DNA of 64,000 nt. Origin: Plasmodiophora brassicae (taxonomy: Eukaryota; Endomyxa; Phytomyxea; Plasmodiophorida; Plasmodiophoridae). The number at the start of each line of letters is the position of its first letter. Positions within the stretch are counted from its first letter, which is position 1. The position numbers and the translations under genes are program-made. Below, piece after piece: positions 18,951 through 29,475 of this stretch. The stretch is from assembly GCA_039704465.1 (NCBI GenBank), contig JASFAU010000018.1, forward strand, positions 719,139-783,138, written 5' to 3'. The notes beneath the pieces are model-generated. The model was not told where the DNA came from, made no database searches, and saw nothing but the letters and a program-made list of their open reading frames with translations.

Positions 18951-19335
18951 TGGGTCGTCCGTGAACACGGTGTCTAAAGCGACATCGGTGTTGCGCGCAG
19001 GTGCAGCGTCGACGTCATGGCGGACGCTCCCTGCAGGGTCGACGACGTCGCATTCGGGTGCCTGCACCTGGCAAGACGAACGCCATGCGCCGCGACACCT
19101 GATGCTCCGAGAGGCGCAATCCCTATCCGCGTCGGCCGGCACCACCACCACCACTACAATCCGCGGGGCAACGACGGATCGCGATTAATTGGCACCGATT
19201 AATCCATCGATGGGGGGCGGTGTGTAATCTGTCCACGCGCGCCGCTGTTCGTCCAGGGGCGGCGCGGTCACGCGGGGTTCGCCAATCTAAATCTGTCGCC
19301 CACCAGCCAGCCAGCCGGGGCACGACGACCGCGTC

Positions 19336-22231
19336 GTGCATGGTCGGCCGACGACGACGCTAAGTAGTAGTATGACGATTAGTAGTACGCCGACGACGAC
19401 GACGACGGCGAAAGGCGACGACGACGACATGGGCCACGTTCTGCGCTACCTGGACTCGCGGCGGCGTCGAACGACGTCGGCGGCGCCATCGCCGGCGTCG
19501 TCCGTCGACTCGGGCGCGTCGGCGACGACGGCGACGAGTACGGCGACCGTGGCGGTGCGCGGGCGCGCCGGTCAGCAGAAGACGGCGGCGGACGACCTGG
19601 CGGCGCACCGCGCCCTGCTGATCGAGTGCGGCGCCGCCTGCGCGCTGTCGTACATGGCGGGGCGGCGCCTGGCGCAGCTGGACCCGGACGAGATGTGCGC
19701 CGGCCTGCGTCGCCCGGTGCGCGTCCTGCGCGCCCTGCGCAGCGCCGGCAGCGCCCACGCCCTCGTCCTGCAGTCGGGCGCCGACGACCTGTGCGTCGCG
19801 TTCCGCGGCGCCCGCCACGCCCCGGACGACCTACGCCTGTACCGGCCGGGCGACGCCGCCCGCTTCTACGAGGCGTTCCCGGCGGCGCACCCGGCCCGCG
19901 TCTACGCCGGCGCCCTGGACTGCTTCCGGAGCATCTACGCGCAGGTCGACCAGGTCGTCGTCGAGTGGCTGGCCGCGCACGCCGACGCCCACGTCCGCCT
20001 GACCGGGCACGGCAGCGGCGCCCTGCTCGCCATCCTGCAGGGCTGCGTCCTGCAGCGGCGCCTGGCCCTGGGCGACCGCCTCTCCGTCGTCACGTTCGGC
20101 GCGCCGCGCGTCGGCAACGCCGCGTTCCAGGCGCGGTACCGGGCGCTCGTGCCCCGCACCTACCGCGTCCTGTACGGGTACGACCCCGTCTGCTTCGTCA
20201 ACGTCGGCGAGTGGAAGCACGTCGGCCGCGTGTTCCACCTGCGCAAGAACGGGCGCGTCTACGACGCCACGTTCGCCCGGTTCGACCACCGCCTGGCGAA
20301 CATGGACGACCACGACATGGGCGCCCTGCTGGCGCGCCTGCGCAAGTGCCGCGCCACCGCCCTGTACGCCGGCCGGCATCGACGCGCCCGACGCTCCCGC
20401 TCGTCGTCCCGCTCGTCGTCGTCCTCCTCGTCGGGCGATCCGGCGCCGTCGCCGCACGTCGCTGACCCGATCGCCCGCGACCGCCTGCTGACGATCGCCC
20501 AGGTCGTGTCGCTGCCCATGTCGTCGCCATCGGCGACGTCGGCGTCCATCTCGATGGCGTTGCGCGCCACGGACGGCCTCGGGGCGCGCGCCGTCCTCGT
20601 CGAGCACGACCCGCGCTGGACGGCGTTCGCGGTCGACCGCCACGCGACGCTCGTCGTCGCCCTGCACAGCGCGGACGATAACGACGACGACGCTGCCGTC
20701 GACTGGCTCGACGGCAGCGTCCGCGTGCACGCCGGGTACCTGCGCGACCTGCTGGACCGCGTCCAGGGCGGCGCCGACCGCATGCTGACCGACTGGACGC
20801 GGCACCACCGCCCCGGCGACGTCGTCGTGGCCGGCCACGGCGTCGACGGCGCCGTCGCCGCCCTCCTCGCCCTGCACTGGCAGGCGCGGTTCGCCCTGGG
20901 CGACGCCCTGTCCCTGGTGACGTTCGGCGCCGAGCCGGTCGTCGCCCGCGGGCACGCGTTCGCCTGGCGCGCCCGGCACCTGCTCCGGAACGCGTACCGG
21001 GTGGTGAACGCGCGCGACCCGATCATCCTGAGCGATGGCGGGCGCGCGCCGTTCCGCCCCGTTGGCGACGTCGTCCACCTGCGCGCCGACCACCGGGTCG
21101 CGTACGACCACGTCGCCGACGACGTCCTGGCGGCCAGCATGCGCCCGAGCGACCACGAGATGCACCGGTACGTGGCGGCCTGCCGCGTCTGGACCGGGGC
21201 GTTCGTGCAGCGGGCGGCGGCGGCGATGGCGGCGACGAGGGCGTCGTCGTCGTCGCCGATGCGGCGCGTGCGCGTGCCGACGAGGTCGGATCCGGGGCCG
21301 GCGCCGCTGTTCTGCGACCCGCCCGACCGCGACCTGCTGCTGGACCTGTGCCATTTCGCGAGCCTGGCGTACCGGTCGCGGGCGCAGCTGCTGGGCCTGC
21401 GCGCCTGGCCGACCGGGCGCCCGTGCACGGTCCGGTTCGTCGAGTTCCTCGAGAGCAGCAAGGACTCGCAGGCGGCGCTGTTCGCCTACGGCAACGACCT
21501 GGTCGTGTCGTTCCGCGGGTCCATGTCCGAGCAGGACTTCAAGCAGGACCTGTCGTTCAAGCCGACGGCGTTCGAGGAGGTGTTCGACGTCGGCGACGGC
21601 GCCCGCGTCCACGGCGGCTTCATGATGCAGTGGCGGTCGATCCGGGCCCAGCTCGACCTGCACGTCGGCGCCTGGCTGCGCCGGGACGGCGACGCCCGCG
21701 GCCAGCTGTTCCTCACCGGGCACAGCCTGGGCGGCGCCCTGGCCGTCATCACCGCCCTGTACCTCGAGGCGCGGTTCGCGCTCGGCACGCGCCTGCTCTG
21801 CGCCACCTTCGGGGCGCCCCGCGTCGTACGTCGTGTTCGTTGCCGCCGCCCGTAAACCCCCGGCGCTTAGACGTCGTGTGTGTGTGCAGGGCAACACGTG
21901 GTTCAAGGTCGCGTTCCGCAGCATGGTGGCCAACTGCTACCGCGTCGTGAACAACGCCGACATGGTGACGGCGCAGGTCGGCGGGTACGCCCTGCGCCAC
22001 GTCGGCGCCGTCCTGCACTTCCGCAACGACGGGTACGCGTACGATTCGTTCTGGCAGCGCCGGGGCGTGAACTACTCGCTCACCGACCACATGCTGGACA
22101 ACTACAAAGCCAAGCTGGCCGCCTGGGACGACGGCGAGCTGTTCCCCGGCGAGTACCGACGGGGGAGCCCGTCGGCGCGACGCCTCCTCCCGTCGCTGAC
22201 GCCGACCTGGTTGTTCTCTTGCGCACGATGA
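19336..22231 (+). CDS. Triple class-3 lipase-domain protein (one intact, two degenerate domains)
   Basis: Exons 19336-21825 and 21890-22231 (64-bp intron) give 943 residues; the ATG at 19372 is an alternative start. After a low-complexity Thr/Asp leader there are three Lipase_3 (PF01764-type) alpha/beta-hydrolase domains at roughly 90-340, 400-610 and 660-930. Domain 1 has GHGSG where the GxSxG nucleophile elbow should be. Domain 2 has GHGVDG. Domain 3 has a normal GHSLGG, with Asp in NNADMVT and His in LTDHMLDNY. 'FGAPRVGNAAF' in domain 1 and 'FGAPRV' in domain 3 are the usual post-nucleophile strand. No clear signal peptide. Only domain 3 should hydrolyse acylglycerols; the others may be structural or lipid-binding. 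Confidence 0.88.
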
Positions 22232-22734: not shown

Positions 22735-25700
22735 TCAGAACGGGGTGCTGCGAGCCTCCTGGCTCTGCAGCAACGTCGACACGTGGTCGATCTTCTGCGC
22801 CTCGGTCAGCTCGGTGTGCTGCAGGATCTCGTAGATCCTCGGCTTCAGCGCCGGATTCCTCTCGATCAGCGACCTATATCGGCAACACGGGCCCGTCATC
22901 AGTCACAATCGTCGTTGCCCCCGGGTCAACGTCCCCGTCACTGACTTGAGCAGGTGCGTGTTGGCCGCCGACGGTGCCGACGCGCTTGCACTGCTGGCGA
23001 CGACCGCGTTCCCGTCATCGGCCGCCTCCATGACGGTCGACGCTTCCACGGCCATCGTGGGCGTCGTCGACGGCGGCACGACGTTGCTCGCGACGATGCC
23101 CATGGTGGCGTTCCGGGACGCGGGCGCCGCGTTCCCTGCTCGACCTGCCGGGCTGTTCGCCAGGTGCCTGGGCGCAGGCCCGACCGTTGCCGCCGCCGCC
23201 GCCTGCTGCTGGTGCTGCTGCATCTGCAGGTCCGACATCTTCTGGGTCGTCCGGTCCCGCAGGTGGCGAAGCTCGACGATCTGCCTGGGCGACAGCGTCT
23301 GCCCGATCGACTGCGGCGGGATCAGCAGGCGCTTGTGGCCGGCGGCCAGGGCGGCGCCGTGCGACGGGTGCGCTCGAACCAGGGAATCCTGCACACACAC
23401 ACGCAGGCGCGCGCGTGTCACCTACCCAGCACGGTGACGAGGCGGCGCGCGTCAGCACCCACCTTGAAGGCGTCGGCCGCCACAGGGACGACGCACGCGC
23501 GCAGACCGCGCTTGCACTGGGCGTTGTGCTGTGCGACGCATCGCGACGCGTGCGCCAGGACGTCGTAGGCGCGCTCGGCGTGCGCACGATGCCGCACCTG
23601 GCAGCGATGACGGAGCCAGTCGAGCGCCGCCCGATGGTTCGTCGTCAGGTCGCCGCCGGGCACGGGCGGCACCGGCGTCCTCGACTCGGCGGCGATGCGC
23701 TCCCAGGCCGCGCCCACCGCGTCCTTCCCCTTGCGGATCAGCGACATGTACCGCTCGCCACACTGCTTGGCGGTGCGCAGGCGCCCCCGAACAATCAGGT
23801 CCGACTCTGCGGCGAACGTTCGTCAGCGCGAACACCAACCGGACCCGACGACGTGCGGGCCGCGCGTACCGAGGAAGTTGGCCACGATGACGAAGTTGGC
23901 GCCAAAGAACGTGACGGCGCAGGAGATCAGCGCGTCCTACGCGGGGCGCGGTTAGGCACACACACACACACAGAGCAACAGGACACCGCCGAGCCAGACC
24001 TCGTCGTCGGTCCAGGGCGGCGGATGCTGCATCGGCACGCGACGCAGCTCGACCGGGGCAACGGGGGCGGCGCCCAGGTCGACCTCGACGACCATGGCGT
24101 GGTCGGCCTCGGCCGCCCGGGGCCGCTTCGCCGGTTCCCGTTCGTCGTCGTCGATGCCGGACGCGTCCTCCGGCTCGACCTTGCGCTTGTAGCCGGCGAT
24201 CCGGCTGACCGGGATGCGGATGCGGGTGGCGATGGACCCGTCCGTGTTGATCGTCTGCGACAGGCGCACGCGGCGCTTCGTCCTGCGATGGCGCCGGCGC
24301 TTGGCGGCCGGCGACAGGTACATACGGGCAATGGCGTCGGGCGTGGCGAACAACCCGTGCGACGTCGTCGCCGGATCGTCGTCCGCGTCCGTCGGCGGCA
24401 GCGGCTCGCCACCCTCGAACACGAGCCTGTACTTGTGGGCAAACAGGCGCACGACGTCGTCGCCGGCGCAGACATAGTAGAGAAGGGGCCTATACGTCCC
24501 GGCAAACAGACGGCCCTGCAGCGGACGACGTTGAAACGGCGGTCGGGCGAACCAGCGTGTGTGTGCCATACCGTTGCAGCGACGACGCCAGGCGGAACGC
24601 TGTCGAACTTGCGACCAGGTTTCTGGGCAGCGCAGTCGGTCAGGACGACGACCGTGCCCGACGGGAACGATTTAGGCGGCGGGTGCGCGCCCGACGGCAG
24701 ATGGTCGAATCGGTCCTGGCGCCCGACGGCCCCGGCGCCAGGCAGGCTGACGAGGTCGACGGGCGTCAATTCCGACGGGGTCGTTGATGAACCCAGCGCC
24801 CACTGCTCGACAGGGCGGAGACGGGCCAGTAGCCGGGGGATGCTCGCGCTGGGCGCAGACGGGGACAGCATGCGGGCGCGCCGCTCGAGCGCAACGAGCA
24901 GCACGTGCTTGGCGTGCAGGTCGACGGCAAGTTCGGCCCTGCCCAGGAGCACCTGCCGGTCGTCGAACGACAGCCTGGCCCACGTTCCGCTGGGACAGGC
25001 ACCGTCGAGCAGAGCGGCGGGGCCCACCGTGCTCGCCGATTCGTGCAGCAGGCGCTGATCGATCGTGTTCGGGCAGACGATCCGATACACGACGACCGGC
25101 CTTCGCAAGCTCAACCGCATGACCTGGGCCTTCACCTGTGGGCACCGGAGGAATCAGACAAGGGTCACACGGGCATCTGGGACGACGAACAACAGCAACC
25201 GCACCATGCTGTCGATAACGGCGTCCCAGTCCGTCTCGAGTATGACGACGACGTCGACCGGCGACAGGTCGAGATCGGACAGATCGGAGCGCGTCGAGGC
25301 GATGCAGACGGTACCGGGCGAGAACACATCGAGTGATCGGGCGTGGCGTTGGCGGCGTTGCCGCAGGAGAAGCTGGGCTGCGTCGCACATCGCACGTGTC
25401 TGCGCCAGAACGACGATGGACCTGCCATGATGTTCGTCGAGCAGCTGCGACAGAGCCAGAAGTTTGCCACTGGACAGGGCGACCTTGGCATTCGGCCATG
25501 GGCCCGTGCGTCGAAACATCATGCACCGCCAGACGTCGGATGGGATATCAGGACAGGCGTCGGAGCACGGGGCATGATCGCCACCGGGCGACAGAACACG
25601 TTCAGTGTAAACGAGGAACGGTCGTGGATCAACGGGATCCACAGCACACGCCGCGTTGCCTTTGTGAACCAGGTCGAACACGATGCCGGGTATCACAACC

Positions 25701-27710
25701 GATGCCGGGAGTGAACGAACCAGCCGAAATGAGACGACGCGGTCAGAGGGGGACGCCGCCCTGTTGGCGCTGTCAGCAACGAAGGCGCATCGAACGGAGG
25801 CACGCTTACATGGCTTGCTCGAGTGGCGACGATTTGGAGACCAGTTTTCTGCTCGAAACGGCCTTCAGATCGCAGCCAGGTCCCCTCGATTCAGACAGCC
25901 TTTCCAGAGCGGCCGCCGCTGACACCAACGACGGCGACAGGTGCGACAGCGGATCATAGCAGGCCAGGGCAGATGTCAAGCGTCGTGGCAAACGTCGGCG
26001 AATATCAAACCATAGAGGCGTGCGGGGCGCCCGTCGTTCATCCGGTTGCGTCAGGGAACAGGCCGCCCGCATCTCCAGGATACATCGCAGGCGTTGCAGG
26101 TCGGTCATCGACGACGATATCGAGGTCATGCCGACGGCGTCGTACTTCAACGCCTGTTGGCGTGTCATCGAGCATTCCACATCGTGCAGAGCGATCGGGC
26201 GTCGGATGCCATCCGCCGACCGAGACAGCGTGAAGTGTCGGACGACGTCAACGCGGTCGAACCCCTCAACGTGGAACGGGTCCGACAGGGTGCCTTGCGC
26301 GACGAACATCAACTGGGAGACGTCCCCAGTGAACGGTGCGATAAGAACTCGTCGCCGCGCGGGAATCCGCAGCAGAGGCGCCAGGCTTGGATGGGCGAAC
26401 TCGATCCGGTCCCCGTCGCCGTCGTACACGACCGTGTCGAACTGGTACGGGCTACCGCTGGCCTTTAACGCGTCGCTGTAGGCCAGCACCTGGACGGAGA
26501 CGACCACGTCCGGCTCCAGGCGGGTCTGTACCTCGGACACCCACCGGGGCACCGTCCGCGACGGCACCACAATCAGCGTGGTCGACCCCGTCTTGAAGAT
26601 GTGTGCAAGGAATGCCAGCACGGTCACACGCTTGCCAAGACCTGAACCGGACGAGGAGGGGTCAGCATCATCCGGCACACAGCAGGAGGTACGGCGGGCG
26701 CAGACCAGATTGATCGGCGAGGATGCAGTCGAGGTTGCGATCGCGCATCGTCGACAGCCAGGCAACGCCCTCGAGCTGGTGGTCCGCTAGGTTCGTCGAG
26801 GAAAGCAGATCGCGAGGCGGGTGCACATCCAGCGTCTGCGAGTCGCGCGCCAGGGCGACCAGACGGGAGAACCGGGCGATATCCGTCGCGCCATCCATCG
26901 GGAAACGAACCTTGTCCGCGTTGACGTCCAGCGACGACGGCTCGGGGATGCCCTGGTCAGCGACCTCCAGGTCACCGTGCAGGTCCCGACCAACGAGCAA
27001 GTCAAAGTCGGGGGTGGACGCCGCTCGGAACCGGTCGATTCGGGCGATGGCCCCCCAGAACTTCCGGACGGCGTCAGAGGCGCGCGCCGCCAGCCGCCGC
27101 GTACGAAGCACGAGCGACTGCGCTGCCAACGCCTGCCTGGACGACCGCTTCATCATGGTCCACTCGAGCTAGCACGCCGAGCGTCAGACGCAACGCCCAG
27201 CGGAACGCGTTGGCAATGCACACCAACCTGTTGGGCAGTAGCACGGCAGGCCGCGCGTCTCCACTGCTCTTCCCGCCGGAAGTCATTCGCCATCCAGCGC
27301 ACCTCGTCGAGCAGGGCATCCCACTGCGTCCGGCACCGTTCGGGCTCGGCGACTTTCGGGACCAGCGACCCCGCCGACCGCTGGAACTCGGCCAGGCGCG
27401 CCTGGAGCGCATCGCGCCGCTTGATCAGCTCGTCGAGGTCGTCGACGCCGCGCCTCTGCATGACCTGCGCCCGATGCAGGCCGGAGTAGTACACGAGTTC
27501 GGGCTTGGCTTTGGCTTGCGGCGGCCCAGACGACGCCGGCGCCGCCTTTGCGTCGTTCGCGGCCGGCGGTGCGGCAGGTGCGGGCGCCGGCGCCGGTACC
27601 GCAACCGTCGGTGTTGCAGACGCCGGCCTATCAATCTGGACACCGGGCACCAGCTCGGCGACCGATTGCAATTCTTGCAGGAGGAGACCGCGCCTGAAAC
27701 GCCGCACCAT
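22735..27710 (-). CDS. HSA / degenerate SNF2 ATPase / SANT protein (EP400-Eaf1-like)
   Basis: Predicted chromatin-complex scaffold. Minus-strand exons are 27710-27228, 27168-26706, 26641-25810, 25760-25205, 25135-24572, 24515-24000, 23936-23870, 23806-23463, 23388-22931 and 22873-22735. All phases agree, and the total is about 1,475 residues. Order: HSA helix (WDALLDEVRWMANDF), SNF2_N beginning DHQLEGVAWL, helicase C (GKLLALSQLLDE; VVVYRIVCPNTIDQRLL), a basic nuclear linker, SANT (PPPWTDDEDALI; TAKQCGERY), HPSH, and a Gln/Ala-rich tail. ATPase motifs are degraded: ADQSGLGKRV replaces ADEMGLGKT, DGDG replaces DE[GA]H, APFTGD replaces TGTP, and the HRIGQ motif is lost. Start is uncertain: the ATG at 27710 is in frame, but another N-terminal exon near 27780-27950 (MDPAAARRPP) may belong. 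Confidence 0.85.
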
Positions 27711-28545: not shown

Positions 28546-29475
28546 ATGACGGGCAGCCAGGAGGAACTCATCGAGCACCTGCGCCAGTCGCGGCAACTGC
28601 CGTCCGATGCCGTCGCCGCGTACATGGCGCGCGTCGATCGCGCCCATTTCGCTCCGCGGGACTGCCCCGCGCCCTACGAGGACCACCCGGTCTGCATCGG
28701 TACGTGGCGCCCCGGCCCGGCCCACACGTCAGGCATAACACATGATCAGGACATGGAGCGACAATGTCGGCGCCAAGTGTCCATGCCGTCAGCCTAGGAC
28801 TGCTCGAGCAGCATTTGAAGCCGGTCTGTCTGCCAACATCGCAACGGATCCTGCCTGGCGTTATGATGACGGGGGCAATCGTTGCAGGGCAGTACCGTGC
28901 TGGACATCGGATCCGGCAGCGGGTACCTGTGCGCCGTCATGGGCCTGATGGTTGGCGACAAGGGCGGCCACGTGTACGGCGTCGACCATATTCCAGGTAG
29001 GTGCCGGCGCCCGTTCCCTCGTGTGCATCTGGCCTTGTCCAGTGACCGCATGGAGCGGCCGTGCAGAGCTGGTGGAAACGTCCATCTCCTCGATTAGCGA
29101 GCATTTCCCGGATCTGATTCGCGGCGAGACCGTCCAGATCATGGTTGGGGACGGGCACAAAGGGCTGCCGCAGCACGCTCCTTACGACTGGTACTGGCCC
29201 GCGTTCAGATTCTCTACAGTCCCGACTGAGTTCGACGTGCGCGCGCGTCTAGTATTCACCTGGGCGCAGCAGTCGAGGACGTTCCCGAGGACATACTGGG
29301 TCAGCTGAAGCCTGGTGGCCGCCTGGTCGGGGCGATCGGTGCCGGGCCGCAGCAGTCCCTGGTGACCGTCGACAAGAACCAAGATGGGTCCGTCAACATG
29401 GCCGTCATCGACGGCGTGCAATTCGTCCCGATGACCAGCGTCGAGGCGCAACTCGAGACCACCATGTGCGACTAA
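28546..29475 (+). CDS. PCMT1: Protein-L-isoaspartate O-methyltransferase
   Basis: Repairs damaged proteins by methylating L-isoaspartyl residues with S-adenosylmethionine (EC 2.1.1.77). Exons are 28546-28699, 28750-28823, 28888-28996, 29067-29190 and 29253-29475, with introns of 50-70 bp; 684 nt give 227 residues, the normal family size. Splicing restores IGHGATMSAPSVHA (family: IGYGATISAPHMHA), the SAM-binding VLDIGSGSGYL, a PYDCIHLGAAVEDVP segment and LKPGGRLV. The C-terminus ends within the usual Rossmann fold and carries no ER-retention signal. Confidence 0.97.

Follow-up and report, generated by a model that had tools for sequence, protein, structure and literature searches.

EP400 (p400) and Domino-A, known as scaffolds of NuA4-type complexes (animal NuA4/TIP60), carry a pre-HSA/HSA region, SNF2 lobes with an insertion, and a SANT domain. 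PMC9643008 assigns the HSA and SANT ends of EP400 to the NuA4 part of the complex and places its motor in the SWR1 part (modules in PMC11995519), and human TIP60, with EP400 in the complex, is reported to exchange H2A.Z (PMC11995519). PIE1, SWR1 and SRCAP deposit this histone variant. A NuA4 platform role has also been proposed for Eaf1/Vid21 of yeast and EAF1A/B of plants, which have HSA and SANT without a working ATPase. In yeast NuA4, the HSA helix of Eaf1 is described as binding Arp4/actin together with Swc4, and its SANT end as binding Tra1 (PMC9643008, PMC11995519), and PMC7239659 and PMC7047200 present Eaf1 as a protein without a SNF2 domain. Here we describe a gene of Plasmodiophora brassicae, located in a window of 64,000 nucleotides (the whole stretch of DNA analysed; contig JASFAU010000018.1), that encodes an EP400 relative. 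Its motor looks decayed while the regions that tie a histone-acetylating complex together are kept, and H2A.Z, the histone variant usually delivered by motors of this kind, was not found in the genome.

The window is the last part of the contig, C18 (719139-783138 of 783138), in a genome of 25.3 Mb and 21 contigs. The gene was rebuilt from the sequence on the minus strand (27710-22735) as 10 exons and 1471 codons without an internal stop; its nine introns, each of 40-74 nucleotides, are all GT-AG, and the phases agree at all junctions. This model bears out the ten phase-consistent exons that an earlier note on this DNA had proposed, as well as the domain order given there, the HSA, SNF2, helicase C and SANT of EP400 and Domino. 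Pfam recognizes HSA (33.2 bits, cut-off 23) and SNF2-rel_dom (50 bits, over profile positions 1-83 of 290 only), and places Myb/SANT slightly below its cut-off (22.6 bits, cut-off 24.4). Pfam gave no Helicase_C match in the 1471-residue protein; lobe 2 is detected by phmmer against PDB chains and by a family profile.

The best PDB match is EP400 (expectation value, E, 3.3e-17), made up of HSA (2e-10), lobe 1 (6.9e-6) and a weak stretch of lobe 2 (0.037); HSA and lobe 1 are the regions most like EP400 and Domino-A. Residues 285-815 align with a profile built from 14 SWR1/EP400/PIE1-type proteins (probability 99.7, E 2.6e-25, 504 columns); this homology reaches from motif Q to where lobe 2 ends and includes, by eye, an insertion of ~170 residues between the lobes. 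Taken alone, the pre-HSA/HSA region best matches SRCAP (3.8e-10), followed by EP400 (9.6e-10 to 9.5e-9) and, weakly, yeast EAF1 (0.0048); compared pairwise with six family proteins, it far exceeds 60 shuffles for five of them. A database search with the HSA stretch alone returned no homologue at E <= 0.01 among 5487 candidates. The SANT domain is most like that of plant PIE1 (P0036; score 79, maximum of 60 shuffles 44) and also exceeds the shuffles with the database protein P0001, discussed below (56, shuffle maximum 43). In a tree of 34 SNF2 sequences and 484 columns, which includes neither SRCAP nor Eaf1, the gene lies on the EP400/Domino/PIE1/SWR1 side, separated from the other SNF2 families sampled, with 97% ultrafast bootstrap. 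Having HSA with pre-HSA, split lobes, this tree grouping and a C-terminal SANT, the gene is, as far as these comparisons define descent, a member of the SWR1/EP400/Domino/PIE1 family. Since its catalytic motifs were tested and failed, it is not classed as an ATP-dependent remodeler by activity.

Structural models add little to this picture. Exons 3 and 4, folded separately, reach a mean predicted local distance difference test score (pLDDT) of 51.1 and 50.9, with an alternating helix-strand core of moderate confidence and little else; in the exon 3 model, values of 66-86 per block are confined to residues 11-100. Foldseek with this model returned SNF2 chains at a template modeling score of ~0.3, a match that lends weak support because the family alignment given as input biases the model. 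The idea that exon 9 holds the EP400 hydrophobic domain was dropped for its chance-level scores.

What is left of the motor? Scoring was based on the 36 motif columns that do not vary in a set of eight Domino, PIE1 and SWR1 proteins, and on 197 other invariant columns of the core. The gene retains 15 of the 36 motif residues, and no motif is intact. For comparison, nine paralogs from the same genome keep 26-32 of them, and 14 further database proteins 24-32. These paralogs (INO80, two ISWI, BRG1, three CHD, MOT1 and CSB, the labels other than INO80 being our own assignment from sequence and tree) represent nine of the 21 other SNF2 loci of the genome. Gone are the Walker A Thr (now Arg), the motif II Glu (DGDG), TGTP, GGLGINL and the first Arg of motif VI, while motif Q, the Walker A GLGK, the motif V STR and one motif VI Arg are retained. 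In addition, the core has two deletions: the VCITSY stretch that precedes motif II is missing, and so is the YLRLDGST stretch in lobe 2. The earlier note left these deletions unmentioned, although it had read the individual motifs (ADQSGLGKRV, DGDG, APFTGD, SDLSDLDL and the HRIGQ region) correctly. Its statement that every catalytic motif is lost is right in that each one is altered, and goes too far in view of the 15 residues kept, among them GLGK, STR and the motif VI Arg. In 21 of the 23 comparison proteins the motifs are better kept than the core (p < 0.05 in 19 of the 23); in the gene the figures are 15/36 (42%) for the motifs vs 55/197 (28%) for the core (p 0.11), nominally in the same direction, so that some motif residues may be held. 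From these changes we infer that the SNF2 motor is a pseudo-ATPase that would no longer hydrolyze ATP; as GLGK is kept, nucleotide binding may still be possible.

Another question is whether the genome offers a replacement. All absences given here come from six-frame searches, which are blind to introns and had no eukaryotic positive control, and they are provisional. A SNF2 search gave 49 exon-level matches, counted as 22 loci including the gene, and an HSA search (both candidates scored) returned the gene locus alone. The separate, intact SWR1 for which the earlier note had suggested a search was not found: a whole-genome SWR1 query (28 of 53 candidates scored) gave 33 matches, all in known SNF2 loci, and no intact SWR1/SRCAP among them. 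The best Domino match (L025, 448 bits) was considered as an SWR1-type gene and rejected, being INO80 (4e-61 with INO80 vs 1.9e-44 with SRCAP); in the PDB, the full Domino protein as a query scores yeast SWR1 at 754-755 bits and INO80 chains at 467-487.

H2A.Z, YL1 and Swc5 were not found either. A human H2A.Z query over the genome matches only L041 and L042, two canonical H2A genes that agree with each other in 132 of 138 aligned columns. YL1 and Swc5/BCNT each gave 0 matches in six-frame genome searches that produced no signal at all. The YL1_C profile gave one match above the cut-off, which reads as the INO80 subunit IES6, and a second, weak one (E 0.37); INO80 and an IES6-like gene are thus present. 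An absence of H2A.Z has been claimed for some parasitic protists. The histone-fold search as a whole yielded 13 matches (16 of 16 candidates scored). One of the five top-scoring loci was read and is H3, the other four being near-equal in score; L039 is H2B, L040 is H2B-like, L044 resembles NF-YC and L045 is a weak match. Two side observations concern these histones. The tail of L041 ends in SQEF, as in H2A.X, and that of L042 does not. The adjoining matches L038 and L043 (G000:C4:1368782-1369160) form a divergent two-exon H3, perhaps a centromeric variant, ~2.4 kb from a SNF2 match (L020).

On the NuA4 side, the genome has a DMAP1 SANT domain (62.5 bits), two MYST loci and two Tra1/TRRAP loci (G000:C18:170654-175597 and G000:C12:38670-44494). 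Fission yeast has two Tra1 proteins, one in SAGA and one in NuA4.

The explanation that we favor, and consider rather probable, is that a Domino-type protein no longer exchanges H2A.Z and persists as a NuA4-type scaffold independent of ATP. The gene is the sole SWR1/EP400/Domino-type gene found in the genome. Its dead motor may still hold a nucleotide via the Walker A lysine, without ATP hydrolysis or DNA movement. The module of actin/Arp4 and DMAP1 (Swc4) would sit on the pre-HSA/HSA region, Tra1/TRRAP would be tethered by the SANT end, and the dead lobes could act as a central spacer or docking block, the MYST acetyltransferase thereby being held in a NuA4-type complex. With the SWR1 reaction, the exchange of H2A for H2A.Z, abandoned in this lineage, the motor would have become dispensable. 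NuA4 membership, each of these contacts and the causal tie to the loss of H2A.Z are what we infer from the domains and the partner genes. Two precedents are at hand, both from PMC7239659: in the Drosophila DOM-A complex, H4K12 acetylation is reported to be independent of the ATPase activity of DOM-A, and the Domino ATPase, inserted between the HSA and SANT of yeast Eaf1, is reported to do no harm (citing Auger 2008). They suggest that a Domino-type protein in a lineage without H2A.Z would keep the scaffold and lose the motor. The NuA4/SWR1-type scaffold with a degenerate motor, already proposed in the earlier note, thus appears the likeliest role for an intact coding gene with EP400/Domino kinship. 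If this is right, the gene is Eaf1-like in function, but it is not Eaf1, because both SNF2 lobes are recognizable.

Several points weigh against the scaffold explanation, among them the provisional nature of the absences. BRG1 proteins carry HSA and the BRG1-like locus of this genome gave none, so that the HSA search misses some. For lobe 2 alone, lymphoid-specific helicase (1.8e-7) and INO80 outscore EP400 (0.037). The pre-HSA/HSA region does not rise above shuffles with fungal SWR1 (P0043, the only fungal SWR1 tried), nor does SANT with animal EP400, Domino-type proteins and fungal SWR1 (four of the six proteins tried). Against the family proteins, scores were at chance level for the post-motor region and for the hydrophobic, TRRAP-binding domain, and a PDB search with the C-terminal stretch matched neither EP400 nor Eaf1 chains. 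EPL1, the link between the acetyltransferase and Eaf1, gave 0 matches in the six-frame genome search, from which an intron-split gene could escape, and a complete NuA4 is therefore not established. Human EP400 has altered motifs III, V and VI and yet is reported to belong to an H2A.Z-exchanging complex (PMC11995519), so that motif changes alone are no proof of lost activity. Lastly, the third-position guanine-plus-cytosine (GC) content of exons 3 and 4 is 0.75 and 0.70, that of the other eight exons 0.80-0.95, which could hint at a weaker or relaxed constraint on the motor.

Could the locus, then, be a pseudogene, or a decaying gene in which the ATPase is the first part to go? Its tree branch of 2.7 substitutions per site and the reduced third-position GC of exons 3 and 4 would agree with this. 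However, all 1471 codons and the splice sites of the nine introns are intact, the SNF2 homology still runs from motif Q through lobe 2, and no second locus able to take over was found. The other five frames of the spliced gene hold 29, 21, 10, 15 and 21 stops; the 540-codon ATPase part has 0, against 16, 11, 7, 8 and 7 in its other five frames and 13.9 on average in composition shuffles. With a codon table built from four long frames of the genome's own SNF2 genes, the best codon score falls on the reading frame in 10 of 10 exons, and the exon scores (0.20-0.56) are like those of the four paralog frames (0.22-0.33, on a table of their own making). As the frame was picked partly because it is open, stop counts and codon scores are support and not proof; still, codon statistics like those of the intact remodelers of the same genome make a neutral pseudogene unlikely, and we regard a pseudogene or decaying gene in general as quite improbable. 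An artefact of the gene model or of the assembly is hardly probable at all. The model was derived from the letters of the DNA, its start codon is uncertain and some donors look weak (GTCTGC, GTCTGG); by hand, an alternative start at ATG 27939 upstream (donor 27740, acceptor 27674) keeps the frame, with a first-exon codon score of 0.14, lower than in all ten modeled exons. Against an artefact, the altered motif letters lie within contiguous exons or at an alignment-supported junction, the alignments cross the junctions within motif I, ahead of motif VI and within SANT without a gap, and the window is free of any N. For the same reason, alternative splicing that restores Walker A and DEGH, an outcome that the earlier note had named as fatal to its proposal, was rejected from the sequence.

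The two remaining rivals accept an intact gene and differ on what the protein does. A scaffold outside NuA4, in which the lobes and the insertion hold the RUVBL ring or a nucleosome in an INO80-side or new complex, is unlikely but worth weighing. Profile homology flanks the inter-lobe insertion on both sides, EPL1 was not found, a TRRAP-binding domain beyond SANT was not detected, and the genome has INO80 and an IES6-like gene; on the other hand, the HSA and SANT ends, which serve NuA4 in EP400 and Eaf1, are recognizable, and DMAP1, MYST and two Tra1 loci were found as well. That the protein is an active, though divergent, remodeler is in our estimate very unlikely. Such an enzyme would account for the retained motif Q, GLGK, STR and motif VI Arg, and human EP400, with IDSP for TGTP, is reported to be in an active complex (PMC11995519). 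Yet the EP400/Domino-A members compared, including human and frog EP400, and the Nk52 protein P0001 all retain the motif II Asp-Glu where the gene has DGDG, so that its motor looks dead by comparison; the core has two deletions, and neither the substrate H2A.Z nor the chaperone YL1 was found. The degenerate motifs and the last point also set the gene apart from human TIP60 and from the H2A.Z depositors PIE1, SWR1 and SRCAP, of which PIE1 and SWR1 fall into its tree group.

Is this decay unique? A database search with residues 70-1250 (7991 candidates scored) gave 33 matches, the best being P0001 (E 2.1e-13). This is EukProt Nk52_evm121s226, an HSA-SNF2-SANT protein probably of Chromosphaera perkinsii; the label Nk52 is absent from the text of the genome paper. 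Like the gene, P0001 is degenerate in motifs I, III, V and VI (SDESGMGKD, ADFV replacing TGTP, motifs V and VI gone); unlike the gene, to which it is 26% identical where the two align, it keeps DEGH and a full-length SNF2-rel_dom (174.8 bits vs 50). EP400 of the frog Discoglossus pictus (P0042, with an EP400_N domain) has GLGKN, with Asn for the Walker A Thr, RDTP and eroded motifs V and VI, and keeps DEVH. Human EP400 has GLGKT, DEMQ, IDSP (a non-canonical motif III), STHSRTTGINL and EWCDRIGRC. The SNF2 domain score falls from sponge Domino (296) through frog EP400 (222) and Nk52 (175) to the gene (50). Without correction for multiple proteins, motif residues have fared worse than core residues in both P0001 (12/36 vs 102/197, p 0.047) and P0042 (17/36 vs 136/197, p 0.014). 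With three proteins only, this suggests that the EP400-type motor is prone to erosion in several lineages, the gene being the most extreme of the cases seen, and the erosion of vertebrate EP400 motors merits a survey of its own.

These relatives also bear on the evolutionary part of the earlier note. The proposal that the gene is an intermediate between EP400 and Eaf1 found no support: in the tree it pairs at 92% with the degenerate P0001, on branches of 2.7 and 1.4 substitutions per site, and Eaf1 cannot be placed in it. The pairing fits lineage-specific decay or, both branches being long, may be due to long-branch attraction. That no such case has been described stands for the open PMC literature, where among the matches listed no title concerns a natural SWR1/EP400-type pseudo-ATPase or an H2A.Z-less eukaryote; it has to be tempered by P0001, which is in public data, and by frog and human EP400, which share some of the motif changes. 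A broader scenario is a real possibility, although short of probable: the lineage would have abandoned H2A.Z and SWR1, its sole remodeler of this family being now an ATP-independent acetyltransferase scaffold, and, together with Nk52 and the vertebrate EP400s, it would indicate that the EP400-type motor decays repeatedly once the scaffold role dominates. The Eaf1 of fungi and plants would then be the end of a route on which others still are.

Table 1. Features of the HSA/degenerate SNF2/SANT gene, in window positions
Feature	Position	Strand	Content
Whole gene	22735..27710	-	10 exons, 9 introns; 1471-residue HSA/degenerate SNF2/SANT protein; single stop 22735-22737
Exon 1	27228..27710	-	N-terminus, pre-HSA and first part of HSA (27398-27228)
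Exon 2	26706..27168	-	Remaining HSA (27168-27034), linker, motif Q (26790-26755), start of Walker A (ADQS and base 1 of the G codon)
Walker A, split by intron	26718-26706 + 26641-26625	-	ADQSGLGKRV
Exon 3	25810..26641	-	Remaining lobe 1, with Walker A GLGKR (26641-26628); VCITSY stretch missing
Exon 3, motif II site	26423-26412	-	DGDG where DEAH is expected
Exon 3, motif III site	26342-26322	-	IAPFTGD where TGTP is expected
Exon 4	25205..25769	-	Inter-lobe insertion and first part of lobe 2; YLRLDGST stretch missing
Exon 4, motif V site	25297-25265	-	STRSDLSDLDL
Exon 5	24572..25135	-	Motif VI remnant KAQVMRLSLRR (25132-25100), end of lobe 2, post-motor region
Exon 6	24000..24515	-	Basic linker, start of SANT
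Exon 7	23870..23936	-	Middle of SANT
Exon 8	23463..23806	-	End of SANT and region after it; whole SANT 24023-23724 across exons 6-8
Exon 9	22946..23388	-	C-terminal region; 23373-23239 resembles the EP400 hydrophobic domain by eye, scores at chance level
Exon 10	22735..22873	-	C-terminus, stop codon

Two neighbors of the gene were noted by eye. Past its 3' end, a long open reading frame at 19291-22231 (+) contains three lipase-like GHxxxGA stretches and is a putative tandem class 3 lipase gene. On the other side, a divergently oriented gene at 28546-29000 (+), protein-L-isoaspartate methyltransferase-like, lies ~840 bases from the start codon, and the two genes may share a promoter region.

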